A stretch of 64,000 bases of DNA from Rhodobacterales bacterium HKCCE3408 (GTDB taxonomy: Bacteria > Pseudomonadota > Alphaproteobacteria > Rhodobacterales > Rhodobacteraceae): assembly GCA_015689705.1 (NCBI GenBank), contig WVSN01000009.1, positions 1 to 64,000 on the forward strand, in the 5' to 3' direction. Shown in pieces: positions 1-41,898 of the stretch (positions are counted from its first letter, which is position 1; each line of letters opens with the position of its first letter). Both the position numbers and the translations under genes were made by a program. The notes under the pieces are model-generated. The model saw only the letters and a list, made by a program, of their open reading frames with translations, was not told the DNA's origin and searched no databases.

Positions 1-124
1 AGACGGGAGAGCGACGAGGCACCCCGCTCGGAGCGCAAAGGTCAGCTGCGCGGACCATCCGGACACCTCCTGACACCGCCCTGTCTCTGGTATGGTAGGG
101 CCCCGACAACTATGAGGCTCGGAA

Positions 125-2803: not shown

Positions 2804-2813
2804 AAAACTGATT

Positions 2814-4765: not shown

Positions 4766-5019
4766 GCCGCAAGCAATAGAAATGAAAAGGAGGCGCGTCG
4801 GAGATGGTCTACTCTTCAAAGCTAATTCCTTTGAGAGCTTAAGAACAGCGCTTTCGAGCGAAGCCAAGAGTTTTGCCCTCGTACCTTAGTTGACCTCTCC
4901 CTGTACGGTATCCAAGCGGGTTGAGCTGCACCCTTGCGAGGGGGAATGGCGACCGACCACACTTTCCGCTAGAGGGCCGCAGGCAACCGTTGCGGGGTCG
5001 CAAGCCGCGAGGACTACGC

Positions 5020-5547
5020 TCAGGCGTTCAACTTGTGGATGGCCTCATCTATCGTTCCATGAACGGAGAAGTCGCCGGTCTCGTAGCGCCGAGCTTTGAT
5101 GAATAATTCAGAGATTGACGGCGCGGCGAAGGAACCGAGGCCGACCTGTCCGGTCCGAGTGGCAATAGCACCGGCCCCCGCCCACAGGGTTTTTCCCGTC
5201 ATCCCAAGTCGCACCTTGTAACCCTTAATAAGTAGAAAGAGCGACTCTTCGAAACTCGCCAGCCGAAGCTCACTGTCAACGAACGCGCTATCGTAGAGCT
5301 TTGCACAGATTCCCGTGGCGAATGCTTCGCCGATCCTGGTTACCGCGTGGAGGCTACGGTCTGCAGCGATGTCACTAGTCGTAGGAGACGGGGCTGATTT
5401 CGGGAACGTCCCAGATCCAATCCAGCGAACGGCGAGCGATGCCTTTCCCCATGCGTCGATGTCACCCCGGGTGGGGCGCAAAATTCTCGCTAAACCAAAG
5501 CTTTGGCGTGAGGCGAGCGCGGTAAACTCAGTAGGCGAAATTCTCAT
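5020..5547 (-). CDS. Hypothetical protein
   Basis: 175 aa, no recognised domain, signal peptide or membrane segment. Composition is that of a real soluble protein, with alternating hydrophobic blocks (FEESLFLLIKGYKVRLGMTG) and a C-terminal half of predicted alpha/beta character. The start lacks a clear Shine-Dalgarno sequence. It is the last of four minus-strand genes running from the MATE pump (7712) to 5020, with 42 nt to the preceding small gene, so it may belong to that transcript. No function is proposed. Confidence 0.5.
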   Translation of the reverse strand: MRISPTEFTALASRQSFGLARILRPTRGDIDAWGKASLAVRWIGSGTFPKSAPSPTTSDIAADRSLHAVTRIGEAFATGICAKLYDSAFVDSELRLASFEESLFLLIKGYKVRLGMTGKTLWAGAGAIATRTGQVGLGSFAAPSISELFIKARRYETGDFSVHGTIDEAIHKLNA

Positions 5548-5589
5548 GGCTTCACATCGCAGAAAGCGTTCAAGACAAACAGCAGTTAC

Positions 5590-5829
5590 CTAGCGGAAGC
5601 GCGAAGCAACGGCGTAGAACTGAGCGCTCGTGCAACACTTCTGCCTGAAGCGTTCGGCGAAAGCCTCCGCCTTCGCCGCGTTTAACGCTGTGCCATCTGC
5701 AGCGAGATGGTCCCCGAAACAGTAGTGTGAAACATGCTCGACGGCTCTTTTTTGGGCGGTCGACGCGGACATCTGCCCGACCGCCCGTGCCGATGCCTGC
5801 ACGGCTTGGCCCGCCGAACAGAAGTCCAT
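5590..5829 (-). CDS. Small hypothetical protein
   Basis: 79 aa, soluble, alanine-rich and probably helical, with a HYCFGDHLAADG segment and a C-terminal RFRQKCCTSAQFYAVASRF. Two adjacent cysteines and several histidines are visible but form no known metal motif. It lies 69 nt beyond the glyoxalase-like gene on the same strand. Unrecognised; the overlapping frame starting at 5875 is arginine-rich and looks spurious. Confidence 0.45.
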   Translation of the reverse strand: MDFCSAGQAVQASARAVGQMSASTAQKRAVEHVSHYCFGDHLAADGTALNAAKAEAFAERFRQKCCTSAQFYAVASRFR

Positions 5830-5898
5830 TACGGCGATGTTTGTGAAGACGATGTCGGTTAGCTCCCCTGCGCATTTCTTGAAGCTTGATGGAAGGCC

Positions 5899-6327
5899 TT
5901 ATGGATCAAGTTCGATGTGCGGCCTCCCGTCCGAGGTCCGCTCCTTCGAATACCCGTCGGGGCCCACATCTACCCGGATCTGCTTGCGCAGGTTCGAGAA
6001 GCTGTCGAAGCGTACTACGTCCACTGCTTCGTCGAGCTCGAGCACCAGCCGGAACCACCCGGGACTGATCTGGTCGGCCGCAAGCACAGTCGCGGCAAAG
6101 GGCTGCGACAGGTAGCGTCCAGTCACTTGTCCACCGGCCGTCCATGCTCTTGCCGGGTGGTCGCGCATCTTGGCGCAAAACGCGTTCCAGTCACGGAATC
6201 CATGCTGGTGTGCGATATGCTCGAGCGCCTTTGCATGGCTGATCGCCTGGCCCTGTTCGGCGAGGGCTCCGCGTAGCCGCTTCGCTTCCCGCTTCGCTTG
6301 GGCGATCGACGGAAGACCTTGCGTCAT
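5899..6327 (-). CDS. Glyoxalase-superfamily-related protein
   Basis: 142 aa. The N-terminal block SIAQAKREAKRLRGALAEQG followed by ISHAKALEHIAHQHGFRDWNA (about 29-49) is the helical signature of the small proteins annotated as glyoxalase-superfamily (Glyoxalase_8) in alphaproteobacteria. The second half (GRYLSQPFAATVLAADQI and onward) is a beta-rich domain. Its ATG overlaps the stop of the MATE gene as ATGA (6324-6327), so the two are translationally coupled. Substrate unknown; the pairing with an efflux pump suggests handling of a small reactive or toxic compound, which is inference. Confidence 0.7.
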   Translation of the reverse strand: MTQGLPSIAQAKREAKRLRGALAEQGQAISHAKALEHIAHQHGFRDWNAFCAKMRDHPARAWTAGGQVTGRYLSQPFAATVLAADQISPGWFRLVLELDEAVDVVRFDSFSNLRKQIRVDVGPDGYSKERTSDGRPHIELDP

Positions 6328-7712
6328 GCCCGCACATCCCCGGCTGCGGTAAAAAGTCCCCAGCGCAGGGATCGAGTCTGAGCGACCTGCACCAGGACGA
6401 GGGCCGTCAGCCCGACAAGCAAGACTTCCGCGAAAGGCGCTGCGAGCCAGATACCGGGCTCACCCAATGACCCGGCCAATGCAAAGGTCAGCGGCATGGA
6501 GAAGAAATAGGGCTTGGAGAGGCCAAGGATTGCCGCGCGCCCCGCATCTCCAATAGCCTGAAAGTGCATGGCGATCATCATCAGCGGCCCGGCAGCGAAG
6601 AACCCCGCCGAGATCACAGGCAGAATGCGCGCGACTTCTCCGATGACGACCGGGTCCGATACGAAGGCCGCACCGATCGGCGCTGCGAAGAACGTCATGC
6701 CGATCTGCAGCGACAGGCAATAGCCGAAGGCCGCGATAACCGCTGTCCGAAGGCTCGCGTCGCTGCGATGGAAGGCGCCTGCGCCGTAGTTATTGCCCGT
6801 GATCGTCTGCATCGCATGGGCCAGACCCAAGAGGGGCAAGAACGCGAATGTTATCAGCCGTGTGACAATGCCGTAGGCTGAGACGGTTGCGTCGTAGTCG
6901 GGGGCGTCCACCCATTGCAGTGCCGCGATGATAGCACCCGAACCCAGTGCGAGCCCGAGGAAGTTGAGGCTTTGCGGCGCGCCGAGCGTTAGGATGCCCC
7001 GCCATCCCGACAGGGGCGAATGGTGCCAGAGCGCGGACGGGCGCAAACCCGTTTCGCCGAAGACGCGGAAGCTCAGGACGATGGTGAGAGCGAGGGCCTG
7101 TGCCAGTGCCGTGCCATAGGCAGACCCCGCCACGCCCATGTCCAGGAGGCCGATCAGGACATAGTTGAAGCCCATGTTGCCGAGCGAGACGAGCAGGCTC
7201 ATCGCGGCCATGAACATCACCAGCCCCTCGTTGCGCAGAGCGTCGGAGTTGACCGACAGCACGAAGATCAAGGGCGCGGCGAAGACCATGATGCGCAGGT
7301 AGGTGAGCCCCATCGCAGCGAGGTCTTCGGATCCGCCGGCCGCGAGGAGCGCGACCGGTTTCCCGAAGGCCAGGAAGAGTGCGATCAGGATGAGGCCTAT
7401 GAAGACGGCGAGGCCATGCGCCGCGGAATACGTCGCGCGCGCCTCGTTCACCCGCCAGGCGCCAAGCTGGCGGGCAAGGATGCTCGACATGCCGGAAGAC
7501 ACCAGCGTCGCGAGCGCCACGATCAGCAAGTAGAGCGGAAACATCAGCGTGACGGCGGCAAGCGCATCAGCGCCTGCGAAATGCCCGAGGAACAGGGCGT
7601 CGACCACGGCGAGCAAGCCGTTCATGCCCATCACGAAGATGATCGGAAGCGCCGTTCGCAGATAAATGGGGCCAAGAGGCCCACTCAGAAATGTATTCGA
7701 TTGAGACGACAT
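6324..7712 (-). CDS. MATE-family efflux transporter
   Basis: 462 aa from the ATG at 7712, which is preceded by GGAAGGAACACGGG; an upstream in-frame ATG at 7745 would add eleven polar residues without a better ribosome site. Twelve hydrophobic segments are visible in two halves, with the MATE-type start LRTALPIIFVMGMNGLLAVV. The family exports cationic drugs or metabolites in exchange for Na+ or H+. It is first in a run of minus-strand genes and overlaps the glyoxalase-like gene by 4 nt. A second MATE protein at 51182-52501 is only distantly similar. Confidence 0.9.
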   Translation of the reverse strand: MSSQSNTFLSGPLGPIYLRTALPIIFVMGMNGLLAVVDALFLGHFAGADALAAVTLMFPLYLLIVALATLVSSGMSSILARQLGAWRVNEARATYSAAHGLAVFIGLILIALFLAFGKPVALLAAGGSEDLAAMGLTYLRIMVFAAPLIFVLSVNSDALRNEGLVMFMAAMSLLVSLGNMGFNYVLIGLLDMGVAGSAYGTALAQALALTIVLSFRVFGETGLRPSALWHHSPLSGWRGILTLGAPQSLNFLGLALGSGAIIAALQWVDAPDYDATVSAYGIVTRLITFAFLPLLGLAHAMQTITGNNYGAGAFHRSDASLRTAVIAAFGYCLSLQIGMTFFAAPIGAAFVSDPVVIGEVARILPVISAGFFAAGPLMMIAMHFQAIGDAGRAAILGLSKPYFFSMPLTFALAGSLGEPGIWLAAPFAEVLLVGLTALVLVQVAQTRSLRWGLFTAAGDVRA

Positions 7713-8014
7713 GACCCCGTGTTCCTTCCGGCTCAGGTCGCGCAAGGAATGGACGGGGCCCGCATTACCATCCGCGCGACAGATGCCGAGGATGACGATG
7801 ATCGTGTCAACTCACAGAACTTCACCGTGACAGGATGTCGGCGGGCGGCAGGCGTCTGTTGCCTGCGCGCCTCGTAGTCGGCTGGCCAACCCATGTCAAG
7901 CGGCCCGGTTTCCACGCCCGACACGCTCGGAAAGACCGCGTGCCAGCAATCGAAGTCTGACCAGATCGCAAAAAACAAGCAGCCTGACCTGGAAGCTGTC
8001 CGCGCACTTTCGTT
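7713..8014. other. Gene-free gap between MATE gene and GNAT gene
   Basis: 302 bases. Minus-strand frames crossing it are short and mutually overlapping, with no ribosome site that I trust. It should hold the MATE promoter (near 7713-7800) and the end of the AraC-GNAT transcript, but I see no convincing terminator stem. Confidence 0.5.
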
Positions 8015-8557
8015 TCACCGAGGCTGGCGGTTCCTTTCCATGAAGAGCGTTTCTCGTGCCCCGTAGCGCCCGATGCTTTCGCCAGAAAAGCCGGTCTTGC
8101 GCGCCACGTTGATGGAGGAGGTGTGCGCCGGATCGAATATCGCAGCCGTTTTGGGATGCTTCAGGTGCGAGTCGGCCCAACGAAGCATGGCCCCGACCGC
8201 CTCCGTCGCATATCCATGTCCATGCGCGGCCTTAGAGAAGACCCAGCCGGCTTCCGGTTTTCCGGCAAGGCTCGGAGTCGTCTCGCGGCGATAGTCTGCA
8301 AAGCCGACTTCGCCGAGGAAGATGCCGTCGTCGCGGGCGACTACCACCCAGTAGCCGAAGCCTGTGTGATGCCAGTGGCCGGTGTAGCGCAGAATGCGCG
8401 ACCAGGACTGCTCCTCGCTTGACGGCTTGCCAGAGATGTATGCGACGACCTCGGGATCGGCCCACATCGCCGCGCTGTCGGGGAAGTCGTCGAGCCTGTG
8501 ACCGCGGAGGCAAAGCCGGTTCGTGAACAGGGTCGGGACGATGTCCGGTCGGGTCAT
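8015..8557 (-). CDS. GNAT N-acetyltransferase (RimJ/RimL type)
   Basis: 180 aa. TNRLCLRGHRLDDFPDSAAM at the N-terminus and the acetyl-CoA region AGWVFSKAAHGHGYATEAVG (about 103-122) are characteristic of RimJ/RimL-like GNATs; the C-terminal INVARKTGF matches the usual N-x-x-A-x-x-x-x-x-x-G block. It transfers acetyl from acetyl-CoA to an amine of unknown identity. Its ATG overlaps the stop of the AraC-type regulator (ATGA, 8554-8557), so the two are one unit. One of three GNAT genes within 5 kb. Confidence 0.87.
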   Translation of the reverse strand: MTRPDIVPTLFTNRLCLRGHRLDDFPDSAAMWADPEVVAYISGKPSSEEQSWSRILRYTGHWHHTGFGYWVVVARDDGIFLGEVGFADYRRETTPSLAGKPEAGWVFSKAAHGHGYATEAVGAMLRWADSHLKHPKTAAIFDPAHTSSINVARKTGFSGESIGRYGARETLFMERNRQPR

Positions 8558-9603
8558 GAAAAAGTTGCCTTTTGTCCAGCCGCCTGCGTAAACGCGGCCC
8601 GGCGGTAATCGGTGGGGGACATGCCTTCGGATGCCCTGAATGCCCGGTTGAATGGGCCGATCGAGGCGAACCCCACGTCATAGGCGATGCTCAGCACGGC
8701 CCGGTCGAGTGTGTCCGGATCGACTAGCAATCGCTTGGCCTCGGCGATCCGGTAGCCATTGACGAAGCTCGGGAAGTTGCGAAAGCCCAGCACGGTGTTG
8801 ATGGCACGGCGAACCCTGTGTTCCTGGCTGTCGAGATGCGTGGCAAGCCTGCCGATGGTCAGCCCTTCCTCGCGCCAGAGCCCTGCGGCCATCGCTGCCT
8901 GTGCCTTGGCGGCTAGCGCGGTGTCGGCGGGCGCATGCGATGCAGACGGAGCCGCAGCCGCAGGTTTGGCCAGCCAGACCGTCGGTGAGAGGCGAACAGC
9001 CCAGATCAGGAACATCGCAGCGAGGGCCAGGAACACCGCGGCCTGCAATGCAAAGACCCAGGCCGGCAGATGACCCGCTTGGCCCGCCAGTTCCACCGCA
9101 GTGATCCCGATGACCACAGCGATGACGGCGAGCAGGAACATGCGCCGGAAGCCCCGTCGCGCCTCGACCAGGTCGTCGCGGGCACTCATCAGGATGGCAA
9201 GCAGCAGATGGCAGAAAAGCGCGATCACCGCCGCGCCTCTAAGCGGCTCGGTCAGCGGCACGGATGGGGGCAGCCATGCGGCGATAACGACCCCGATCAT
9301 GAGCGCGATCTGCCACCACTCGAAGGCGACATCGTCGAGAAACAGCTCCAGCGACGCCCAGTAGCCCAGGACCGGGGCGATCCCGGCCGCCAAGATCAGC
9401 AGCGGCCCGACCGGATTGGATGAGATCGGCATCGCGGGAGTGGACACCAAGAGATAGGCACAGAGCACCAAGCAGAATGCCGCGATCGACACCGATTTCC
9501 GAGTCGGACGAAGGCCGAGCAGAAAAATCAGTGCGCAAAGCGACAGGACCGCGATCGCTCCGCCGCGCAAGAACAGGTCCAGGACGGTCCATTGGGTGAA
9601 CAT
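8554..9603 (-). CDS. AraC-family regulator with N-terminal membrane domain
   Basis: 349 aa from the ATG at 9603; the open frame upstream to 9795 is polar and overlaps the divergent gene. Residues 1-215 contain six or seven hydrophobic segments, starting MFTQWTVLDLFLRGGAIAVL. After a proline/alanine linker comes a C-terminal AraC/XylS DNA-binding domain (about 245-345) with LTIGRLATHLDSQEHRVRRA and the second helix-turn-helix IAYDVGFASIGPFNRAFRAS. Such proteins sense a membrane or extracytoplasmic signal and bind DNA from the membrane. Divergent from the sterol desaturase gene, 167 nt away, which is its most likely target; co-transcribed with a GNAT gene. Confidence 0.88.
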   Translation of the reverse strand: MFTQWTVLDLFLRGGAIAVLSLCALIFLLGLRPTRKSVSIAAFCLVLCAYLLVSTPAMPISSNPVGPLLILAAGIAPVLGYWASLELFLDDVAFEWWQIALMIGVVIAAWLPPSVPLTEPLRGAAVIALFCHLLLAILMSARDDLVEARRGFRRMFLLAVIAVVIGITAVELAGQAGHLPAWVFALQAAVFLALAAMFLIWAVRLSPTVWLAKPAAAAPSASHAPADTALAAKAQAAMAAGLWREEGLTIGRLATHLDSQEHRVRRAINTVLGFRNFPSFVNGYRIAEAKRLLVDPDTLDRAVLSIAYDVGFASIGPFNRAFRASEGMSPTDYRRAAFTQAAGQKATFS

Positions 9604-9674
9604 GCGCCAAAAAGACGCGACCCCAGCCCGGCGGTCAACGCCCGGCGCATCGCCGATTCCGAAAGACTCGCCCT

Positions 9675-9707
9675 GATCCCGAATGAATTGCGCCGTTTTC
9701 CGGGATC
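9675..9707. promoter_or_regulatory. Inverted repeat in divergent promoter region
   Basis: GATCCCG (9675-9681) and CGGGATC (9701-9707) form a perfect 7-bp inverted repeat separated by 19 nt, midway between the AraC-type regulator and the desaturase. It could be an operator or chance; AraC proteins more often use direct repeats. Confidence 0.25.
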
Positions 9708-9770
9708 GGTGCGCGCATTCAGCAACGGTCGGCAATCCCTTCGCGCGAAGCAACCGGAAGGGATGAGCCC

Positions 9771-10970
9771 ATGACCACAGTCCTCGATGCGACAACGCAG
9801 ATCGCGGCCATCTATTCAGATGTCTTCGGTGGCGATCTGATGCGCTACATGTTGGGCGCAGGCGGTGTCTACCTCCTAATAAATACTGTACTCTCCCGGC
9901 GACTGGCCGCCCAGAAGATCGGGGAGCGGCCGATCCCGCAGGAACAGATTTGCAGGGAGGTCTTGGCCAGCCTGCGCACGGTGGCGATCTTTGCCGCGGC
10001 GGGCACGACGATCGCCTTCGGCGAGCGATCGGGCTTGATAGCGATCTATCACGACATCGCCGAGTACGGAATCGCGTATTTCTGGATCAGCACCGCGCTT
10101 CTGATCTTGCTGCACGACGCTTGGTTCTACTGGACCCACCGCGCGATGCACTATCCCCCAATCTACCGCAGGTTCCACCGGCTCCACCACCGGTCACACC
10201 GACCGACACCTTTCACATCCTACAGCTTCAATGCCGGCGAGGCTGTCGTGAACGGCGTCTACCTGCCCCTCGTCCTGCTCGTGCTGCCGGCGCACCCTCT
10301 GGCGCTTCTTATCTTCGTCAGCCACATGATGTTCCGTAACGCACTGGCGCATTGCGGATACGAGATTTTCCCGGCGCGCCGTGACGGGCGCCCGCTTTTC
10401 GGCTGGATGACAACCGTCACCCATCACGACATGCACCATGCGCATGCCGGCAGAAATCTCGGCTTCTACTTCAGCTGGTGGGACCGCTGGATGGGGACAG
10501 AGCATCCCGGCTATCTCGACGCCTTCCGCCGGGTCGGCCAGCCTCTCTCACCGTCCAGTCTCCGCGTTGGCATGGTCCTGGCGATCCTGCTCCTCGCGCT
10601 GGGCGCGGGCGGAGCCATGGCCGACGACCTGCAGGGGCGGTACGCCGCGCCGGGTCTCGAGATCATCGTCGAGTTCGCGCCCTGCGCCGCGGACGCGTCG
10701 GCCAGATGCGGGACAGTCGTATGGATCTGGGATCCGTCGGGCGTGCCGCAATGGCAGGTGGGCGACGTGATCCTGCCCGGTCTGTTCTTCGATGGCCGAC
10801 GCTGGAAGGGGCAGTTGACCAGCCCCCGGAAGGATCGGGCAAATCGGGGAACCGTGGCGCCGCATGGACCGGATCTGCTGTGCCTGAAAGGCTGCGCCGG
10901 TCCGATCTGCCAGGCCCAGACCTGGCGATCGGTCCGGTCACTGGCGCGTGCACTTGAGAGCGCGTCATGA
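9771..10970 (+). CDS. Sterol desaturase/fatty acid hydroxylase fused to DUF2147
   Basis: 399 aa, two-part protein. Residues about 25-255 form an integral-membrane di-iron oxygenase of the sterol desaturase family with its histidine clusters H115-DAWFYWTHRAMH127, H136-x2-HH-x2-H143 and H218-HDMHHAH225, ending in the typical FYFSWWDRWMGT. Residues 267-284 are a hydrophobic stretch ending AGGAMADD that resembles a signal peptide with cleavage site, and residues 287-385 match DUF2147 (GRYAAPGLEI, CGTVVWIWDP). A DUF2147 domain is normally a separate secreted protein, so this looks like a gene fusion that places it outside the membrane. The stop overlaps the methyltransferase start (ATGA). Hydroxylation or desaturation of a lipid is likely; the substrate is unknown. 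Confidence 0.82.
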   Translation: MTTVLDATTQIAAIYSDVFGGDLMRYMLGAGGVYLLINTVLSRRLAAQKIGERPIPQEQICREVLASLRTVAIFAAAGTTIAFGERSGLIAIYHDIAEYGIAYFWISTALLILLHDAWFYWTHRAMHYPPIYRRFHRLHHRSHRPTPFTSYSFNAGEAVVNGVYLPLVLLVLPAHPLALLIFVSHMMFRNALAHCGYEIFPARRDGRPLFGWMTTVTHHDMHHAHAGRNLGFYFSWWDRWMGTEHPGYLDAFRRVGQPLSPSSLRVGMVLAILLLALGAGGAMADDLQGRYAAPGLEIIVEFAPCAADASARCGTVVWIWDPSGVPQWQVGDVILPGLFFDGRRWKGQLTSPRKDRANRGTVAPHGPDLLCLKGCAGPICQAQTWRSVRSLARALESAS

Positions 10971-11698
10971 AACAGGTTGCGTCCCACCATGGCATCACGG
11001 ACCAGCCGCACAGACCCGCCCCGGGTCTGGGTCCCCAATCAGACGCATCTGTCAGCGGACGGGCCGACCGCCGAGGCAGTGTCTATGACCGGCTCGCACC
11101 GCGCTATGACAGGCTTCATCGGCGTTGGTTGAAATACGCGGGTGGAGAGGCCCAGGCGGCGCTGGAGGGCGCGGTGCGGGCGTTGATCCGGCCGAACATG
11201 GACATGCTGGATGTCGGCTGCGGGAACGGCGCGCTGATCCGGCGCCTTGTCGCGGACCGTATCGCACCTGAGCGCATCTGTGTCGTCGACACGTCGCAAG
11301 CCATGTTGGACCTTTGCGCCGATCTGCCTGCGTGCCGGGTTCGCGCGCCGATGCAGAACCTGCCCTTTCCGGATGCGAGTTTCGATCTCTTGACCTGCGC
11401 GTGGACGCTCGAAACCATCACAGAGAGGCACGTTGCCATCCGCGAAATGCAGAGAGTTATCAGACCAGGCGGATGGGCCTGCGTCGCCTTCTGCGCAAAA
11501 ACACAAAGCACTTCGTTGGTCGGTTGGATCATGCGTCGTGCCGTCGAGCTGCGTCGGGCAGGTGGCTTTCTCCACTTCCCGGATCTGCTGCGGGATTTCG
11601 GTCGCACGGACTTCTTCCAGGCGCGGCCTTTGCCCTGCCGTGGGCCCGCCGCAGCCATGCTTGTTCAAAGAACCGTGGAAAGACGACGTATGTCTTGA
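10967..11698 (+). CDS. Class I SAM-dependent methyltransferase
   Basis: 243 aa. The SAM-binding motif I is MLDVGCGNGALIRRL; motif II ERICVVDTSQAML and the post-motif FPDASFDLLTCAWTLETI follow in order (Methyltransf_11 arrangement). The first 30 residues are polar and variable. Translationally coupled to the desaturase fusion by ATGA at 10967-10970. The acceptor is not evident, but coupling to a membrane lipid oxygenase points to a lipid or lipid-derived substrate, which is inference. Confidence 0.85.
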   Translation: MKQVASHHGITDQPHRPAPGLGPQSDASVSGRADRRGSVYDRLAPRYDRLHRRWLKYAGGEAQAALEGAVRALIRPNMDMLDVGCGNGALIRRLVADRIAPERICVVDTSQAMLDLCADLPACRVRAPMQNLPFPDASFDLLTCAWTLETITERHVAIREMQRVIRPGGWACVAFCAKTQSTSLVGWIMRRAVELRRAGGFLHFPDLLRDFGRTDFFQARPLPCRGPAAAMLVQRTVERRRMS

Positions 11699-12034
11699 AG
11701 CTCATGAGCAATCGGCCCAAAGCGGACGTTCAGAGTTGGCACGCTTGCTGCGCGGCGGCATTTCGTACGCGGACGTTCGTCGCCATACTCAGCGTAGCTA
11801 ATGCGGTCCACCGTCTCCTTGGCGAACAGGTCAGATATCGAGTTGAGGGTCTGATACCGTTCGTGTCGAACAGCGCTGGGCGTTGGGCGTGGAATACTAT
11901 GAAGGTCTTCCGATAGTTCGCCATAGCGATGCAGACCAAGTAATGGGATAGCGCGGGTACGATGACAGAGACTATGCACAACCCATCCTTGGAACCCTTG
12001 ATCTGCAAATGGTCCCGAGCCGGTTTTGTAGGAC
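11699..12034. other. Gene-free gap after the methyltransferase
   Basis: 336 bases with no supportable gene. It carries a reversed fragment of the dispersed hairpin repeat at 11713-11733. Frames here are short and read through the repeat. Confidence 0.5.
11713..11733 (-). repeat. Fragment of dispersed hairpin repeat, reversed
   Basis: Read on the minus strand, the 21 bases give CTGAACGTCCGCTTTGGGCC and one further base. They match the left arm region of copy 1 (TGAACGTCCGCTATGGGCTC at 1331-1350) with few differences. Only half of the hairpin is present. Confidence 0.45.
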
Positions 12035-12589
12035 ATGTTTGTCCGCACGTTTGTCGTGGGGGACAACATCTTGAAGATTGAGATCGCCTTCGTTCGCTTG
12101 TCGGAGATCGAGCCCACCAAAATCGCAGATCACATGTCCGATCCGCGAGTAGCGGAGCACATGCCGCTCTTGAGGTCTACTTGGGATGAAGAGATGGCGG
12201 CGAAGTTCATACAAATGAAGGAAGCTTGCTGGACGGGGGACGGGCTGGGGCATTGGGCGTTTCTGGCCAACGGAAGATATGTCGGCTGGGGCGGCTTTCA
12301 GAAGGAAGGAGACGAGTGGGATTTCGGACTGGTGCTTCGACCCGAAGCTTTCGGACTCGGCAGGCGGATCGCAAGGAAAGCCATCGACTTTGCCATTGCT
12401 GACGCGCGCATTTCTTTCGTGACTTTTCTTCTGCCACCCTCTCGAAAGAAGCTTGGTGCACTCCAAAAACTTGGTGCTCGGCTGGTCGGCGAGGTCGAGT
12501 ACGACGGGGCTGCGTTCCTCAAGTTCCGGCTCGAGACTGAGAGCGCTGACGTTCGCACTTCAAAGCAAGGCGTTCACTCGGATACTTGA
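12035..12589 (+). CDS. GNAT N-acetyltransferase
   Basis: 184 aa as written; the true start may be internal, near KIEIAFVRLSEIEPTK, because the first dozen residues look like upstream sequence. The GNAT core is visible as GHWAFLANGRYVGWGGFQKE, the acetyl-CoA loop RPEAFGLGRRIARKAIDFA (about 113-131), and the C-terminal strand-helix LGALQKLGARLVGEVEYDG. Substrate unknown. It is isolated between two gene-poor stretches. Confidence 0.78.
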   Translation: MFVRTFVVGDNILKIEIAFVRLSEIEPTKIADHMSDPRVAEHMPLLRSTWDEEMAAKFIQMKEACWTGDGLGHWAFLANGRYVGWGGFQKEGDEWDFGLVLRPEAFGLGRRIARKAIDFAIADARISFVTFLLPPSRKKLGALQKLGARLVGEVEYDGAAFLKFRLETESADVRTSKQGVHSDT

Positions 12590-12868
12590 TCAAACGAAGG
12601 CCTGTTCGTGTGTGGATTACGTCGAGTGCAGATATTTCACGATGCTGCGGAGTGTCTTGCCCGCCCTAAGGGCACTTGAGGGTTCAGCCCCTTACGGCCC
12701 TTAGCGGACCTTTAGTCCCAGCTCACCATGATGCAGCGCGGTCCGTCAGAGCCGCCGTTCGCCGTGATTGCGAACCCCTGCTGCGGTCGGAGGTCATCTG
12801 TGCGGGACGACGCTGCCTTTCGTCAGATGCTGGCGAAGGGCGGCTTTGTACATCCGGTTCAGCCTGTC

Positions 12869-13390
12869 TCAATGGTTCTCCATTGCATGAACCCAAACTT
12901 TCGCCTCAGGTTCGTGCGGAGCTCGTTTTCCGTCCGTGATGGCACCTAGCCTCTTCGCCACGGCCTGCGAACGAGCATTCTCCCGGTCTATGTAGCTGTA
13001 TAGCCGATCTAACCCCAGCTCCTCGCGGGCCCATTTCTTGACGGCGATTGCAGCTTCGGTGGCGAAGCCTTTTCCCTCGCCCTCCTCGAAGAGATGCCAT
13101 GCCAACTCTATGTCCGGCCAGTTGGAATGCTTAATCAAGCCCACGCGCCCAACAGGCTGTCCTGTCTTCTTTTCAACGACGCTAAAGAAGCCAAAACCGT
13201 GCCAATGCCAGTGTCCGATTCCAGTCAGAAACCCAAACCAAGCCTGTTCCGCCGTGACGGTCTCTCCCTGCGCTTCCATCGATGGGGCGCTGGTCATGAA
13301 CCGGGTGAACGCCGGTAGATCATCCCGTTCAGGACCACGCAAAACCAATCTTTCGCTCGTTAGCACGGGTGCAGCAGAGAGATTATTCAT
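12869..13390 (-). CDS. GNAT N-acetyltransferase (RimJ/RimL type)
   Basis: 173 aa from the ATG at 13390 (MNNLSAAPVLTSERLVLRGP); an in-frame extension to 13456 lacks family character. The acetyl-CoA site is LFEEGEGKGFATEAAIAVKK and the C-terminal ENARSQAVAKRLGA is the usual N-x-x-S block. It resembles the GNAT at 8015-8557 in layout (for example GHWHWHGFGFFSVVEKKTG against GHWHHTGFGYWVVVARDDG), so the two may be paralogues brought in together. Confidence 0.85.
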   Translation of the reverse strand: MNNLSAAPVLTSERLVLRGPERDDLPAFTRFMTSAPSMEAQGETVTAEQAWFGFLTGIGHWHWHGFGFFSVVEKKTGQPVGRVGLIKHSNWPDIELAWHLFEEGEGKGFATEAAIAVKKWAREELGLDRLYSYIDRENARSQAVAKRLGAITDGKRAPHEPEAKVWVHAMENH

Positions 13391-13490
13391 TGGGTGCCTT
13401 TCCAGTCGCAAACGCTGGCTGAAGCCAAGTACAATAAAGATAACGCGCGCGCTCAACTAAAAGAGGTCGTTCGCGCCTGTTGCAGCATTT

Positions 13491-13586
13491 GTCCCTTTTT
13501 GGCTCAGAGCAGACCTTCGCTGCAGGCGCGAGCGTTGCGGTTCCGATACTGTCGGCTGAGCGGCAGCGATGCGGACAAAGCGGACC
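13491..13586 (+). repeat. Dispersed intergenic hairpin repeat, copy 2
   Basis: Shares 30 identical bases (13508-13537) with copy 1 and the tail motif ATGCGGACAAAGC. The left stem arm has diverged (GTCCCTTTTTGGCTC), so the hairpin is weaker than in copies 1 and 3. Confidence 0.65.
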
Positions 13587-13671
13587 TAGCCTGCGCGATG
13601 GTGATCGCCTCCTGCATTGACCGGTGACCGAGGTAGTTTAACTTGCCCGGAACATTGTTGGAGAGTGCCAT

Positions 13672-14271
13672 ATGACCCGTCCGAATTCCGCAGCAGCGAC
13701 CCTATCGCTCGCAATCCCGCTAACCCTCATTGCGTTTGCAGCCCAAGCCCATACTGGCGAAGGCATCAACACCGGGTTTGCGTCGGGTTTCTGGCACCCG
13801 ATCCTTGGTTGGGATCACGTCGTCGCGATGGTCGCCGTCGGTCTCTGGGGCGCGTTTCTCGGCGCGCCCGCGATCTGGATCTTGCCGGTCGTGTTTCCGC
13901 TGGTCATGGCTGTCGGCGGCGCACTCGGCGTCATCGGCGTGCCGCTCCCGGCCGTCGAAACGGGTATTGCCCTGTCCGGTGTCGTGCTCGGCTTGCTTAT
14001 CGCGTTTGCAGTGAGAGCGCCGATCTGGGTCGCGGCCGTCATCGTCGGGATCTTCGCGATCTTCCACGGCCATGCGCATGGAACGGAATTGCCGGAAGCA
14101 TTTTCGGCCTATGGCTACGCAGTCGGGTTCGTGGTTGGCACGGGCCTCCTCCATCTCCTCGGCATCGGCCTCGGCTTCCTGACGCGTTATCAGCAGGGCA
14201 AGATGGCGGTTCGTGGCGCCGGTGGCGTCATTGCTGCCGTGGGTGCGGCCTTCCTGTTCGGCATCGCCTGA
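13672..14271 (+). CDS. HupE/UreJ-family metal permease
   Basis: 199 aa. A signal-like first segment ending AQAHTGEG is followed by the hallmark ASGFWHPILGWDHVVAMVAV, whose histidines and aspartate are the conserved metal-site residues of the HupE/UreJ family, and later IFHGHAHGTELPEA with further histidines. Six to seven membrane helices. Family members import nickel or cobalt; no hydrogenase, urease or cobalamin gene is in view to tell which. A GGAGAG lies just upstream of the ATG. The next gene starts 7 nt after its stop. Confidence 0.88.
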   Translation: MTRPNSAAATLSLAIPLTLIAFAAQAHTGEGINTGFASGFWHPILGWDHVVAMVAVGLWGAFLGAPAIWILPVVFPLVMAVGGALGVIGVPLPAVETGIALSGVVLGLLIAFAVRAPIWVAAVIVGIFAIFHGHAHGTELPEAFSAYGYAVGFVVGTGLLHLLGIGLGFLTRYQQGKMAVRGAGGVIAAVGAAFLFGIA

Positions 14272-14278
14272 CGCTGTC

Positions 14279-14887
14279 ATGCGCAAGGCTGTCCTTGTAT
14301 CGCCGCTCGCGGCAACATTTGCCGCGAGCCGTGCTGAAGCGCACGCTTTCGAGATCGGGGCCGATTACTACTCGCAATTCCTGGAAGGCGCGTCGGTGGT
14401 ATTCACCTACCCGTCGCTTCTGCTACCGACGCTTGCCCTGGGCATTCTTCTGAGCCTCTGGCGCCTGGATGGCCTGCTGCGCGTCTGGCCGCTCTTCCTC
14501 ATCGGACTGGCGGCTGGTCTCGTGCTTGGTGCCTTTGTCGGTCCCGCTGTCTCCACGGTCCTGACGGCCGTCGGCGTCGTAACCGCTGCGCTCGCTGCTG
14601 TGCTCGGCCGTCATGTTTGGGCGGAGGCCGCAGTTCTGGCTCTGGCAACCGGTTTGCTGGTTACATCCGTAAGTCTCGAAGGGCATGGTCTCTTTGAACT
14701 CGGAGTGTTCATCTATCTGGGCATCCTGTTCGCGGCCAATATCGCACTCGCCTGGTCCGCGGCGATGGTGCGTCTCGCGCTGGAACAGATCGACCAACCG
14801 TGGGTGCGGATCGGCGGGCGGGTCGCGGCATCGTGGATCGGAGCGATCTTGGTGCTCATGCTGGCGTTCGCGATAGCAAATCCATAG
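14279..14887 (+). CDS. Multi-span membrane protein paired with HupE-like gene
   Basis: 202 aa from the ATG at 14279, 7 nt after the HupE-like stop; the frame is open upstream but only as antiparallel overlap. It begins with a hydrophobic segment and SRAEAHAFEIGADYYSQFLE, then about six membrane helices without charged residues apart from EGHGLFELG. No family is recognised with certainty. Position and the shared histidine-containing start (EAHAFE against QAHTGE) suggest a partner of the permease, perhaps in the same metal import step; that is inference. Confidence 0.68.
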   Translation: MRKAVLVSPLAATFAASRAEAHAFEIGADYYSQFLEGASVVFTYPSLLLPTLALGILLSLWRLDGLLRVWPLFLIGLAAGLVLGAFVGPAVSTVLTAVGVVTAALAAVLGRHVWAEAAVLALATGLLVTSVSLEGHGLFELGVFIYLGILFAANIALAWSAAMVRLALEQIDQPWVRIGGRVAASWIGAILVLMLAFAIANP

Positions 14888-14959
14888 CTTCATCGCATCA
14901 AGACTGCGACATCGGATGGGCCAAGAGCAGTGCGCGGGCCCGCCAAGCATCTGCAGAAG

Positions 14960-14987
14960 ATGTCCGCTTTGGGCTCTTAGCGGACAT
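14960..14987 (+). repeat. Dispersed intergenic hairpin repeat, copy 3 (core)
   Basis: ATGTCCGCT (14960-14968) and AGCGGACAT (14979-14987) form a perfect 9-bp stem around a 10-nt loop TTGGGCTCTT. The flank TCGCTGCAG is shared with copies 1 and 2, but the rest of the longer repeat is missing. Confidence 0.65.
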
Positions 14988-15130
14988 TCGCTGCAGCGCG
15001 ACAGATGGGCTTTCTCCGTAATAGACTCTGCCTTCGCGTCATCGCTTGATCGGAGGAAGCTGCTCGGCTTGTTCTGCCGACGGAACACGAGTTGTCTGTG
15101 TAATACGAAAGCTGGAACGGGTCGCGTTTG

Positions 15131-15145
15131 TGTTATAATATAACA
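15131..15145 (+). promoter_or_regulatory. Palindrome covering a -10 box, next to the start codon
   Basis: TGTTATAATATAACA is a 15-nt palindrome (arms TGTTATA and TATAACA around one base) that contains a perfect TATAAT at 15134-15139. The ATG of the next gene begins at 15149, so transcription from this box would start about 3 nt or less before the ATG, giving a nearly leaderless message. There is no Shine-Dalgarno sequence in front of the ATG, in agreement with this. Confidence 0.55.
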
Positions 15146-15148
15146 TTT

Positions 15149-15715
15149 ATGGCGTACGGCTCAGATACATCCTCCGCGGTCACGGCGGCGGACGCTTCGC
15201 TCGCGGATCAGGCTCCCGGCCGCACGGCGCCGCGGATTGAGGTCGTGGCCGAAGGTCAGGTTGAGGTTCACCTCTCCGACACAGACCAAGCCAAACGCCT
15301 CTATGGAACAAGGACCAATGAGGCAGCAGACCTGCTGCTGACAGCGGCGCTGAATGCTTTGGGCCAGAACGGCGCAGAATACATGAACCTCATGGCTGCG
15401 ATGGCGGTGGAGATGGAGCCGAGTGACGCGGTCGAGGGGATGCTGGTCACACAGATGACGGCAACGCACGTGGCGGTGACGAACATGTCCCGCCGGCTGC
15501 ATCACGCGGCATCTCCGGAATTGCGTGAAGCCTACGAACGCTCAATGACCCGTCTGAGCCGCACGTTCCTTTCACAGATGGACCAGCTGAAAAAATATCG
15601 CGCCAAGGCACAGCAAGTTGTCCGGGTCGAGCGGGTGGAAGTGAAGGACGGCGGCCAGGCCATCGTCGGCGATGTCAATTACAAGGCGGGGGGTAAGGAT
15701 GAAAACCGACGCTAA
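15149..15715 (+). CDS. Hypothetical protein (first of a phage-like pair)
   Basis: 188 aa from the ATG at 15149; an upstream TTG at 15128 is less likely because it would sit inside the palindromic promoter. Residues about 1-55 are low-complexity and polar; the remainder is helical, with NEAADLLLTAALNALGQNGA, an internal MAAMAVEMEPSDAVEGM block and a long helix before RVERVEVKDGGQAIVGDV. No family recognised. It overlaps the next gene by 17 nt. The layout, a helical protein followed by a Cys/His-rich HGG protein, is reminiscent of gene pairs in prophages and integrated elements, which is only a suggestion. Confidence 0.65.
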   Translation: MAYGSDTSSAVTAADASLADQAPGRTAPRIEVVAEGQVEVHLSDTDQAKRLYGTRTNEAADLLLTAALNALGQNGAEYMNLMAAMAVEMEPSDAVEGMLVTQMTATHVAVTNMSRRLHHAASPELREAYERSMTRLSRTFLSQMDQLKKYRAKAQQVVRVERVEVKDGGQAIVGDVNYKAGGKDENRR

Positions 15716-15971
15716 CCCCAAGAACCCGATCCAACGGTTACGTGACGCGCCCCGTTGCCGTGCCCTGGCAAAGTCGACCGGGGAGCGCTGCAAATGCCCT
15801 GCCGTTCGGGGCTGGCGGGTCTGCCGGGTCCACGGCGCACGCGGCGGTCATGCGGCCGGTCCGTCACATCCGCATTGGAAGCATGGAGGGCGGTCAAGGG
15901 AGGCTCTACGCGCTCGGAGGCTGGCGATTGAGCTTGCTGAAATTCCGGCCTGCAAAGGCCTCGATCACTAG
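15699..15971 (+). CDS. Small Cys/His-rich HGG-motif protein
   Basis: 90 aa from the ATG at 15699, preceded by GGGGTAAGG. The core is APRCRALAKSTGERCKCPAV, then WRVCRVHGARGGHAAGPS and HPHWKHGGRS. Four cysteines and six histidines in about 50 residues suggest a metal-binding fold, and the C-R-A-x-x-K-x-T-G-x-x-C ... HG-x-x-GG-x-x-x-GP order is the layout of the small HGGxSTGP-type proteins of unknown function. It overlaps the preceding gene by 17 nt and is probably translated with it. Confidence 0.65.
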   Translation: MKTDANPKNPIQRLRDAPRCRALAKSTGERCKCPAVRGWRVCRVHGARGGHAAGPSHPHWKHGGRSREALRARRLAIELAEIPACKGLDH

Positions 15972-16193
15972 GCGATCGAATTGAGCACAATCTCTTCAGC
16001 GACCTATCGCTAGTCAGAGATCCGGGATGCATCATTGTCGCGTAGCGCAGACACAAACGCCTCGTAGGCCCGTCGAAGCAGCGATAGTCGGTCTGACGTC
16101 GCTCTGTATGTGAGCATGCGGAAGCCCTGGCCAAGGCCATCCGATCGATAGTAAGGGCGCGTTGAAACCCCCGCTGCCCTCACGTGGCATCAA

Positions 16194-16595
16194 TCACTGA
16201 CACCAGAACTCCTCGCCGTCAGGGTAGTATCGGGCCAGCCCTTCGCCCACGAGGATGTCGGCAACATCCTCACCGTTGGAGCGGACGACGACTAGGACGC
16301 GCCCGTAACGGTCCTCCCCCCGTGCCTCGAGGGTAACTTCAGTTGTGTTGAGCAACTCCATGAAGCGGCGTGACGCCTCACTGGCAAGCTGCTGCTCGCG
16401 AGAACCGCCGCAAATGTTTGTCTGTGGCTCTGGAGTGTCGTAGCCGAAGGATCGGTACTTCACACCATCGAGCCAGAAGGTGTCACCGTCGACAACGCAA
16501 GTGATGCGCTGACCAGATCCGCACATATCAATCGCTGCCGCTGATGTTGCCATGCTAAGAATTGCGAACGGCAACACTGCGAGAAGTCTCTGCAT
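16194..16595 (-). CDS. Secreted thermonuclease-like protein (SNase fold)
   Basis: 133 aa from the ATG at 16595; an in-frame ATG at 16625 is possible, and the frame stays open to 16736 without family character. Residues 1-21 are a signal peptide (MQRLLAVLPFAILSMATSAA). The mature part is a compact SNase domain: CVVDGDTFWLDGVKYRSFGY (33-52) holds the calcium/active-site aspartate and arginine, DTPEP follows, and EDRYGR (94-99) holds the second catalytic arginine. Expected to cleave DNA and RNA in the periplasm or outside. It is the gene closest to the 3' end of tRNA-Glu. Confidence 0.83.
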   Translation of the reverse strand: MQRLLAVLPFAILSMATSAAAIDMCGSGQRITCVVDGDTFWLDGVKYRSFGYDTPEPQTNICGGSREQQLASEASRRFMELLNTTEVTLEARGEDRYGRVLVVVRSNGEDVADILVGEGLARYYPDGEEFWCQ

Positions 16596-16772
16596 CGACT
16601 CAATTCCGTCTCTTCTCGGCAACATAGCCAGACGTCCTAGTAGCGACAAAACCCCGTCCCAAGCTCCGGCGAGTAACGGAGCAGCCGTCGTCGCGGTGGG
16701 GGATGTACTGGGGGATGCGCCGAATGGTAAAGCCAATTTACCTTTTAATATCAGGAATTTGCAGGAATTTTT

Positions 16773-16847
16773 TGGCAGCCCGTAGGGGAATCGAACCCCT
16801 CTTTCCAGGTTGAAAACCTGGCGTCCTAACCGATAGACGAACGGGCC
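16773..16847 (-). tRNA. tRNA-Glu (anticodon TTC)
   Basis: Cloverleaf on the minus strand: acceptor GGCCCGT with ACGGGCT, D-arm beginning GTCT, anticodon stem CCAGG/CCTGG around loop TTTTCAA (anticodon TTC, plus-strand 16812-16814), T-arm GGGGTTCGATTCCCC, discriminator G and encoded CCA at 16773-16775. Its 3' end faces the accessory region 1-16.7 kb, a common integration point, although no duplicated tRNA end or integrase is visible in the window. Confidence 0.95.
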
Positions 16848-22737: not shown

Positions 22738-23328
22738 ATGGCGCGCACGCAGGGATCCCATGCCGAGACGACCGGCCCGCGGGTGCGGGCGGCCGCGCTG
22801 AAACTGTTCGCGCGGCATGGCTACGCCGCCGTCTCGATGCGCCAGATCGCGGCCGAAGTCGGCGTGCAGGCCGGGGCGCTCTACCTCTACACGCCGGACA
22901 AGCAGACGCTGCTGTTCGAGCTGATGCGCGGCCATATGGAGGACCTGCTGGCCGACTGGACGCCGGTCGGCGGCAGCCCGGTCGCGGAGCTGGAAACCTT
23001 CGCCAGACACCATATCCGCTACCATCTCGACCGCCCCGACCTCGTCTTCATCGCCTATATGGAACTGCGCAATCTGGACCCCGAGAACTTCAGCGTGATC
23101 GAGGAATTGCGGCGCGCCTACGAGAACCGGCTGGAGGGTATCCTGCGGGCGGGGGTGGAGCGCGGGCACTTCGCCGTGCCGGACACCAAGCTGGCGACGC
23201 TGGCGATCATCGCGATGCTGACCGGCGTGACGACCTGGTACCGCGAGGGTGGGCGTCTGAGCCGCGAAAAGGTCGGCGATATCTACTGGGACATGGTGCG
23301 CAAGGCGGTGCGCGCGGGCCACGCGTGA
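22738..23328 (+). CDS. TetR-family transcriptional regulator
   Basis: 196 aa from the ATG at 22738. The N-terminal helix-turn-helix is RVRAAALKLFARHGYAAVSM followed by RQIAAEVGVQAGALYLYTPD, a textbook TetR motif; the helical C-terminal domain (from about 65) is the ligand-binding part with FIAYMELRNLDPENF. The ligand is unknown; related regulators often control fatty-acid or acyl-CoA metabolism. The palindrome at 22709-22722 is a likely self-operator, and the lipoprotein gene divergent from it a likely target. Confidence 0.9.
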   Translation: MARTQGSHAETTGPRVRAAALKLFARHGYAAVSMRQIAAEVGVQAGALYLYTPDKQTLLFELMRGHMEDLLADWTPVGGSPVAELETFARHHIRYHLDRPDLVFIAYMELRNLDPENFSVIEELRRAYENRLEGILRAGVERGHFAVPDTKLATLAIIAMLTGVTTWYREGGRLSREKVGDIYWDMVRKAVRAGHA

Positions 23329-23330
23329 CC

Positions 23331-23486
23331 GGGCGGTTAACCGTCCGGCCAAGGGGTTAACGCCCCTGAACCTGCCCGAAACCGCGGAATCGGGGCATGA
23401 TGGCGCCGGTATGCCTGACGGTATGCCTGTCCATACATCCGCGACCGGCGCACATGAGAGCGCCGTTCGGTGGTTAACCGTGCGCA
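23331..23486. repeat. 155-bp intergenic element, copy A
   Basis: Matches 41611-41766 at a constant offset of 18280 without any gap. Conserved blocks: TTAAC at 23337, 23357 and 23474; CGGGGCATGATG from 23391; then 23 identical bases 23406-23428 containing the direct repeat GGTATGCC-TGAC-GGTATGCC; CCATACAT; CGCACAT; and GTGGTTAAC. It lies between the convergent ends of the TetR and hydrolase genes, so it is not a promoter of either. Confidence 0.75.
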
Positions 23487-23500
23487 GGCGCGAGGCGCCG

Positions 23501-39903: not shown

Positions 39904-41535
39904 CTAGAGGTCGGCGGCCTGCTTGCGCAACTCGAACTTCTGGATCTTGCCGGTCGAGGTTTTCGGCAGCTCTTGGAAGACGATGCGCTTTGGCGTCTTG
40001 AAGCCGGCCAGCGTCTCGCGGGCGAAGGCGATGAGATCGGCCTCGGTCGTCTCGGCGCCCTCTTTCAGTTCGACGAAGGCGCAGGGCACTTCGCCCCATT
40101 TCTCGTCCGGCTTCGCGACCACGGCGCAGAGCAGCACGGCGGGGTGGTGCATCAGTCGGTCCTCGACCTCGACGGAGCTCACGTTTTCGCCGCCCGATAT
40201 GATGATGTCCTTCGCGCGGTCGGTGATCTGGACGTAGCGGTCGGGATGCAGGACGGCAATGTCGCCGGTGTGGAAGTACCCGCCCTCAAAGGCTTTTTTC
40301 GAAGCCTCGGGGTTCCGGTAATAGCCCTTCATGGTGGAATTGCCGCGCATCATGATCTCGCCCATTGTGCGGCCGTCGGCGGGGACTTCCTCCATCGTCG
40401 TCGGGTCCATGACGGTGATGCGGTCCATGTTCGGGAAGGCGACGCCCTGGCGGGCCTTGATCGCAGCGCGCTCGGCGCCCTTCAGTTCACCCCACCTGTC
40501 CTCCTGCCAGGTGCATTCGGTCGCGGGGCCGTAGACCTCGGTCAGGCCGTAGACCTGCGTGACGTTGAACCCCATGGTTTCGATGGCTGCGAGCGTGGCC
40601 GCCGCGGGCGGGGCGCCGGCGGTGAAAACCTCGACGACATGGTCGAAATCGCGCCGCTCCGCGGGCTTCGCATTGACCAGCATGTTGAGCACGATGGGCG
40701 CGCCGCCGAAATGCGTAACCCCTTCATCTGCAATGGCATTGTAGATGTTTGCCGCGGTGATATCGCGGCAGCAGACGGTGGTGCCGCCCAGGACGGGCAT
40801 GGTCCAGACGTGGCACCAGTTGTTGCAGTGGAAGAGCGGGACGATGGTCAGGTAGACGGGGTAGAGCGTCATCCGCCACGAGATCGGCGTGCCCATGGTG
40901 ATGAGATAGGCGCCGCGGTGGTGGTAGACGACGCCTTTCGGCCGGCCGGTCGTGCCGGAGGTGTAGTTCAGCGCGATCGATTCCCATTCGTCCTGCGGCA
41001 TGATCCAGGCCGCGCCGGGGTCGCCTTCGGAGAGCAGCTCCTCGTAGGTCGTGTACTTGCCCGAGGCGGGAAAGCCGGCGGCCTCGTCCGGCACTTCGAT
41101 CAGGATCGGGCGCGGGCCGGTCAGCTCGTCGAGCGCCTCTTCGACCGGGGTGAGGAACTGGCTATCGACCAGGACGACCTTCGCGCCGCCATGGTCGAGG
41201 ATGTAGGCTATCGTATTGATATCGAGGCGGATATTGATCGAATTGAGGATCGCGCCGGCGGCCGGAACGCCCCAGTGCGCCTCGACATGGGCGGGGATGT
41301 TGGGCAGAACCGCGGCGACGACATTGCCGGGTTCGACACCGCGCGCGGCCAGCGCCGAGGCGAGGCGGGAGACGCGGTCGTGCATCTCGGCATAGGTCTT
41401 GCGGAAGGTGCCGTAGACCAGCGCGGTGCGCTGCGGGAAGACGCGGGCGGCGCGGTGCAGATGGCTGAGCGGGGTCAGCGGCACGAAGTTCGCCGTCCGC
41501 TTTTCAAGCCCGGTTTCGTCCTGCATCCAGCCCAT
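39904..41535 (-). CDS. Acyl-CoA synthetase (AMP-forming)
   Basis: 543 aa. ANL-superfamily enzyme: ALNYTSGTTGRPKGVVYHHR (P-loop), VPLFHCNNWCH, QVYGLTEVYGPATE, and the hinge/C-terminal YFHTGDIAVLHPDRYVQITD with RAKDIIISGGENVSSVEVED and catalytic K in PKTSTGKIQKFELR. Activates a medium/long fatty acid (or an aryl/alkylthio acid) with ATP and CoA. The neighbouring beta-oxidation genes make fatty acids the likely substrate. The 155-bp element copy B lies 76 nt upstream. Confidence 0.9.
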   Translation of the reverse strand: MGWMQDETGLEKRTANFVPLTPLSHLHRAARVFPQRTALVYGTFRKTYAEMHDRVSRLASALAARGVEPGNVVAAVLPNIPAHVEAHWGVPAAGAILNSINIRLDINTIAYILDHGGAKVVLVDSQFLTPVEEALDELTGPRPILIEVPDEAAGFPASGKYTTYEELLSEGDPGAAWIMPQDEWESIALNYTSGTTGRPKGVVYHHRGAYLITMGTPISWRMTLYPVYLTIVPLFHCNNWCHVWTMPVLGGTTVCCRDITAANIYNAIADEGVTHFGGAPIVLNMLVNAKPAERRDFDHVVEVFTAGAPPAAATLAAIETMGFNVTQVYGLTEVYGPATECTWQEDRWGELKGAERAAIKARQGVAFPNMDRITVMDPTTMEEVPADGRTMGEIMMRGNSTMKGYYRNPEASKKAFEGGYFHTGDIAVLHPDRYVQITDRAKDIIISGGENVSSVEVEDRLMHHPAVLLCAVVAKPDEKWGEVPCAFVELKEGAETTEADLIAFARETLAGFKTPKRIVFQELPKTSTGKIQKFELRKQAADL

Positions 41536-41898
41536 GGCTCATCCTCCCCGTGCCGCGCAACAATCCACACGCAGGGATGGCCCAACACGCAAGAAAAGGG
41601 AAGGGTTGTGCGTGGGTTAACGCGCGACCGCAGAGGTTAACGCCGGTCATACCGGCGAAAGACCCGGATTCGGGGCATGATGCATCCGGTATGCCTGACG
41701 GTATGCCTTTCCATACATACGCATTCATCGCACATCAGTCGTCCGATCCGTGGTTAACGGTGCGCGACTGCACCACTTGTCCACAGATCGAGGCCACCCC
41801 CCGAGAATCCCGCTTCGCGGACCGGCCCCGATGCAGTAGCGTCCGGCGTCGGGGGATCAGGCAATTTGGCGCGGGGCCGATCACCCCGTGAAGCGATC
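41536..41898. other. Intergenic region holding element copy B
   Basis: 363 bases between the divergent acyl-CoA synthetase and Cys-rich protein genes. It contains the 155-bp repeat (41611-41766) and must hold both promoters. No ORF here has a family match; frames beginning within the repeat are discussed as a finding. Confidence 0.6.
41611..41766. repeat. 155-bp intergenic element, copy B
   Basis: Second copy of the element at 23331-23486. TTAAC occurs at 41617, 41637 and 41754, the same spacing as in copy A; CGGGGCATGATG begins at 41671; the 23 bases 41686-41708 are identical to 23406-23428. Of the 50 bases 41671-41720, 45 match copy A. Unlike copy A it lies between divergent genes. Confidence 0.75.

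Follow-up and report, generated by a model that had tools for sequence, protein, structure and literature searches.

Two intergenic elements, copies A and B, lie in the window, the stretch of 64,000 nucleotides analyzed here. The core of both is a head-to-tail array of the 12-bp unit CGGTATGCCTNN, and such arrays occupy 18 intergenic places in the genome of the same bacterium (G000). Address, orientation, and GTTAAC flanks of the arrays persist in a second species of the genus (G001), where another unit, with another period, takes the place of this one at the 11 loci compared. Copies A and B are tentatively explained, at somewhat less than even confidence, as members of a genome-wide set of intergenic multi-site platforms on double-stranded DNA for a sequence-specific DNA-binding protein.

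Copies A and B and the array set of the own genome

As the first-pass annotation had described, copies A and B are aligned without a gap at an offset of 18,280, and three TTAAC words (each part of a GTTAAC), the TCGGGGCATGATG block, and a 23-base identical run keep the same relative positions in both. Of 156 bases, 112 are identical. The longest identical runs are of 23, 13, and 10 bases, and matching positions cluster beyond the level of shuffled sequences (sum of squared runs, P = 0.002; longest run, P = 0.012). In a BLAST search of positions 23325–23490 against the own genome, copy B was the top match after copy A (E = 1.3e-22, with 78% across 134 bases). The run of 23 bases reads CCGGTATGCCTGACGGTATGCCT, and the identical core consists of two head-to-tail copies of NNCGGTATGCCT. 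That this direct repeat is a tandem unit of 12 bp, found at 18 places of the genome, goes beyond the earlier annotation. The GTTAAC boxes of both copies are located at −72, −52, and +65 relative to the array, the first two with a 15-nt spacer (20 nt start to start). The features of the two copies are as follows.

23331–23486, plus strand: copy A, extended element (match of model R2 at 23330–23495, E = 1.9e-35; A is among the five sequences used to build the model)
23336–23341, no strand assigned: GTTAAC box 1 of A
23356–23361, no strand assigned: GTTAAC box 2 of A
23390–23402, plus strand: TCGGGGCATGATG block of A, preceding the array
23405–23416, plus strand: 12-bp unit 1 of A (NNCGGTATGCCT)
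23417–23428, plus strand: 12-bp unit 2 of A
23429–23440, minus strand: last unit of A, inverted and decayed, with CATAC inside
23449–23455, plus strand: CGCACAT word of A
23473–23485, plus strand: right-hand box of A, GTTAACNGTGCGC (third GTTAAC, starting at 23473)
41611–41766, plus strand: copy B, extended element (match of model R2 at 41611–41774, E = 1.2e-35; B is likewise among the five model-building sequences)
41616–41621, no strand assigned: GTTAAC box 1 of B
41636–41641, no strand assigned: GTTAAC box 2 of B
41670–41682, plus strand: TCGGGGCATGATG block of B, preceding the array
41685–41696, plus strand: 12-bp unit 1 of B
41697–41708, plus strand: 12-bp unit 2 of B
41709–41720, minus strand: last unit of B, inverted and decayed, with CATAC inside
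41729–41735, plus strand: CGCACAT word of B
41753–41765, plus strand: right-hand box of B, GTTAACNGTGCGC (third GTTAAC, starting at 41753)

Copy A is flanked by convergent gene ends, as had been noticed before: a TetR gene ends at 23328 and an alpha/beta-hydrolase gene at 23501. Copy B is located upstream of an AMP-binding enzyme gene (39904–41535, minus strand). Between copy B and a FadB-like gene there is a small ORF (41866–42147, plus strand), which shows CxxCxGxG-like motifs by eye and has no Pfam match. The G+C content is 52–64% across positions 1–16775 of the window (~16 kb), possibly an integrated island, and 66–70% past the tRNA gene at 16776–16847.

With two mismatches or fewer allowed, the pattern GGTATGCCNNNCGGTATGCC gave 32 matches across the own genome and the reversed control gave 2; three two-mismatch places (C45:6405, C43:140690, and C1:371181) were left out, being not array-like and without a model match. 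A sequence-only model built from 16 copies recovered those 16, which match by construction, and two new ones, giving 18 arrays. The scores show a sharp gap after this set (E = 3e-5 for the 18th array and E = 0.017 for the next new place), and one extra piece, C3:98800 (E = 0.02), is part of an array already counted. The earlier annotation had left an old chance duplication as the explanation if no further copies were found; the 18 own copies and the arrays at orthologous places in the sister species indicate more than that. Its proposal of a search in relatives is refined by the result: relatives lack the same words, and some have analogous arrays of other words.

Five copies have the long layout (A, B, C24, C13, and C1:413). 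The model built from them gives E < 1e-27 for the same five, by construction, and 6e-11 for one further, partial copy. GTTAAC boxes are found at −72/−73 and −52/−53 in A, B, and C24, at −67 in C13 and C1:413, and at +65/+66 in all five, with CGCACAT sitting between the array and the right-hand box. An inverted unit terminates the array in all five long copies; across both species, an inverted core is present within 25 nt after the last unit in 5 of 18 own arrays and 2 of 27 G001 arrays, and before the first unit in 0 of 45. GTTAAC occurs between −90 and +110 of the array in 13 of 18 own arrays versus 3 of 83 control gaps (p = 5e-10), and in 14 of 27 G001 arrays versus 2 of 97 control gaps (p = 2e-9). 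CcrM sites (GANTC) are not enriched at the arrays.

Among the 51 own units, two spacer positions carry only 0.31 and 0.08 bits, and the other non-core positions 0.84–1.72 bits; the five-base core was fixed by the search and so stands outside this comparison. Weakly constrained positions in an otherwise fixed unit look like the result of selection on a contacted word, not of recent copying. The constraint on geometry proposed from the A/B pair is seen across the set: the period is fixed at 12 bp in all 18 copies, and each unit has two positions under weak constraint.

All 18 own arrays are located between predicted genes: 5 in convergent gaps, 1 in a divergent gap, and 12 in same-direction gaps (6 in each orientation). 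The G001 arrays comprise 5 in convergent, 2 in divergent, and 19 in same-direction gaps (12 along the genes and 7 against them), with 1 unclassified. These classes come from a simple hexamer gene caller; in G001, a gene on the left is missing for one array, a single gap contains two arrays, and one array overlaps a small, doubtful gene prediction. Arrays of the genus seldom occupy divergent gaps, which are rich in promoters (3 of 44 arrays versus 64 of ~192 other gaps, p = 2e-4, where the control total comes from an estimated subtraction and the same kind of gene call). After several arrays, a start codon follows within about 50 bp. Neighbors recognized through Pfam include YebC, a dipeptide-type transport operon, RraA/PrpF, and the TetR regulator, and one more neighbor is, by its sequence, what we take to be a glutamate-synthase small-subunit-like (gltD-like) enzyme. 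No common pathway was seen among the flanking genes inspected.

Arrays in the sister species and in other genera

The exact pair GTATGCCTNNCGGTATGC was found in 0 of 100 relatives, G001 included. G001, the one other species of the genus among the search returns, has 27 arrays of the 11-bp unit CGGGTAGAANN. The pair pattern of this unit has 51 matches in G001; the control gave 0 matches, as did the other 60 genomes searched. The 121 G001 units have one near-free position (0.11 bits) and one weak position (0.74 bits). A GAACCGGTA-like junction is common to the own and G001 units, a resemblance suggestive by eye alone.

Comparison of orthologous intervals revealed a G001 array for 11 of the 18 own arrays, in the same orientation in 11 of 11, as read from the GGTA common to both units. 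The G001 ortholog of the TetR gene beside copy A shows 82% nucleotide identity, and a CGGGTAGAANN array lies downstream of it, past one extra G001 gene; at C23, the extra G001 gene is on the far side. Copy B has no counterpart, since the corresponding G001 gap of 133 bp contains no array, and arrays must therefore be gained or lost. For the other six own arrays, no G001 array of the exact pattern was found next to the flanks, and 16 of the 27 G001 arrays are without a partner in the own genome.

All 61 genomes of the family yielded a match to the gltD-like protein, in two cases at just 37–38% identity. Among 29 gltD-like loci from other genera (at one, L275, the stretch was misread and is not a spacer), 4 have a direct-repeat array immediately after the gene. 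These four arrays (G036, G011, G049, and G056) each consist of a different unit, and they were read by eye because the automatic tandem finder detected nothing, the own array included. A 200-kb sample of G036 contained one more array of its unit. No direct-repeat family stood out in G025 or G012 in samples of 327 and 395 kb, a size at which only two or three arrays would be expected.

The G056 unit was searched in the complete G056 chromosome with up to two mismatches, and 54 matches versus 7 for the control were found. About 26 array loci with period 11 are spread around the chromosome, a count that excludes six weak single two-mismatch matches, and gene context was available for 23 of the 26. 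Two positions are near-free among 56 G056 units (0.13 and 0.14 bits). In same-direction gaps, 15 of 17 G056 arrays are antisense to the genes (p = 0.002), and no such bias is observed in the genus (6 of 12 in G000 and 7 of 19 in G001). Divergent gaps contain 3 of 23 arrays versus 68 of 239 for the control, which shows no clear avoidance, and overlap with a predicted gene was seen for 5 of 23. The presumed leading strand is followed by 19 of 26 arrays (p = 0.03), with replication arms assigned by hand from GC skew and the locus at 99 kb ambiguous. GTTAAC association was not found (0 of 23 arrays versus 7 of 215 controls). The neighbors of G056 arrays and of the arrays in the genus (g1) coincide, within two genes, at 3 places, and ~2.8 are expected by a rough estimate. 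With sharing at chance level, the gltD place is at most the one location suggestive of array homology across genera. No match to copy A, to one G001 array, or to one G056 array was found on plasmids.

A family-wide BLAST search with copy A returned 8 of 393 other genomes, each with a short partial match of 21–43 bases. This search was insensitive, as it scored two candidates per genome and recovered just 2 of the own copies. Across 60 relatives, model R1 gave one borderline match, in G032 (E = 0.008). In G025, locus L132 matches CGGAATCGGGGCATGATGG of copy A, and no such array was seen beside it. Two other Rhodobacteraceae records, L066 (972–991) and L079 (5225–5244), have a single own-unit pair each, in a near-identical common context. 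In the post-gltD spacer of several other genera (L257–L280), palindromes similar to TAGGTCAG...CTGACCTA were recognized by eye. Outside the family, 35 contig stretches and 42 viral stretches were returned, many of which are Gly-Met-Pro coding repeats by eye. In a Paenibacillus stretch (L060, ~6236–6255) and a viral stretch (L112, ~7192–7211), GGTATGCCTAACGGTATGCCT is followed by a T run, resembling an intrinsic terminator.

Possible role of the arrays

Each platform would carry two to four head-to-tail sites, about one per helical turn, and the putative protein would probably assemble in adjacent positions on the DNA. An inverted site at one end and flanking GTTAAC boxes, perhaps for a second factor, would be added in the extended form. 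Binding of a protein to double-stranded DNA is suggested by direct repeats one turn apart, weakly constrained spacer bases, inverted end units in some arrays, occurrence in both orientations in the genus, and conserved addresses. Of the causes named in the first-pass annotation, multi-site protein binding appears the likeliest, given 18 arrays of fixed period and sister-species arrays at orthologous places. At the 11 loci compared, the word has been replaced. This points to a change of binding specificity, in which the recognition word would have changed and the arrays followed. A bound array would most likely act as a road-block, an insulator, or a chromosome-organizing site at gene ends and spacers, not as a promoter operator, a role to which the evidence points weakly.

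The sharp score gap after 18 arrays, the weakly constrained positions, the orthologous addresses with orientation kept, the GTTAAC flanks, and the scarcity in divergent gaps argue for the platform reading. Against it stand the lack of a common pathway among flanking genes and of a G001 counterpart for copy B. The antisense bias in G056 is not predicted from a purely double-stranded role, and G056 shows neither the GTTAAC association nor clear avoidance of divergent gaps, with neighborhood sharing at chance level.

A wider form of this reading is possible but doubtful: Rhodobacteraceae may maintain some 20–30 platforms at inherited addresses, with the word of the whole set rewritten as lineages diverge, together with a putative co-evolving protein. 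Satellite DNA and PRDM9 motifs co-evolve rapidly with their binding proteins, and rewritten platforms would be a bacterial counterpart. Binding words in bacteria usually outlast the surrounding spacer; the reverse is seen here between two species. If a protein tracks the changes of the unit, a joint shift in specificity of a protein and dozens of sites could be traced by sequence comparison; if none does, the arrays would be dispersed bacterial repeats that evolve in concert in an unusual way. Among the matches listed in a search of mostly open-access literature, no description of such arrays in Rhodobacteraceae was found.

The main rival, which we regard as rather unlikely, is a REP-like family: small non-autonomous elements, spread and homogenized through a mobilizing enzyme or gene conversion in permissive spacers at gene ends, each species having its own variant and the cell gaining no function. 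The arrays resemble REP and REPIN-BIME elements (RAYT-associated) in being dispersed, extragenic, and species-specific (18 and 27 copies), in their gene-end and intra-operon places, and in their scarcity in divergent gaps, and the absence of copy B from G001 also agrees with this reading. REP diversity is ascribed to co-evolution with RAYT genes in PMC3116915. However, the units are head-to-tail direct repeats of 11–12 bp and not palindromes, their folding is weak, and an inverted last unit is present in just 5 of 18. The loci number 18, 27, and ~26, versus usually more than 100 REPs per genome according to PMC2817692. Replacement of the unit in place and orientation at 11 orthologous addresses is not expected from independent jumps, and the weakly constrained positions in an otherwise fixed unit favor selection over recent copying. 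The title of PMC3733652 names a GTAG or CGTC tag for REP elements; the G001 unit contains GTAG, CGTC is found across the G056 unit, and the own unit has neither.

It is improbable that the arrays are operators through which an ordinary global regulator, such as an OmpR/PhoB-type protein, controls the neighboring genes. Proteins of this type bind head-to-tail repeats of ~11 bp, about one turn apart, at the promoters of their regulon. The period of 12 or 11 bp, the head-to-tail layout, and the arrays close upstream of start codons agree with this; however, the arrays lie mostly off promoters (5 of 18 own arrays in convergent gaps and 1 of 18 in a divergent gap), and the neighbors inspected are diverse and form no coherent gene set. 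Such regulators seldom change their word completely within a genus, whereas it is wholly different between these two congeners. The flanking GTTAAC boxes resemble CtrA half-sites. The earlier annotation judged their spacing incompatible with a CtrA site, and this stands for a reported full motif, TTAAC-N5-GTTAAC (PMC7232146), which the 15-nt spacing in A and B does not fit, although half-sites are said in the same source to matter in R. capsulatus. In off-promoter location and change of word, the arrays differ from CtrA sites as well. Sites at which chromosome-organizing proteins bind in clusters (parS, matS, and iteron-like arrays) are likewise dispersed, non-coding, limited in number, and free of any regulon logic. 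Words of these types are usually conserved across genera, unlike the array words, which change within a genus.

The RNA hairpin, peptide, and promoter readings fit poorly. In the first of these, which is very improbable, tandem GGUAUGCC units would pair (8 pairs, two of them G-U) into hairpins that end or stabilize transcripts. Minimum free energy structures of many own copies do show the 8-bp hairpin, and in the Paenibacillus spacer L060 a T run comes after the same repeat. Neither the G001 unit nor the G056 unit, as read from its sequence, can self-pair, and folding is weak: with mononucleotide shuffles, the mean z was −1.58 sense versus −0.70 antisense for the 18 G000 arrays, and −1.33 versus −0.89 for the 27 G001 arrays. 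In same-direction gaps, 6 of 12 own arrays, and 13 of 31 over the two species, are antisense, and Rfam at gathering score returned just a tRNA from the window. The RNA fold, which the first-pass annotation had offered beside protein binding, was accordingly rejected as a general reading.

A short peptide or coding minisatellite, suggested by a period that is a multiple of three and by an open frame ATGATG...TAA in A and B, was rejected on frame and period and can be set aside almost entirely: A, B, C24, and C1_413 retain both the frame and its stop, but C24 and C1_413 have no ATG at the same place, the stop of C13 is out of frame, and the period is 11 in two other species.
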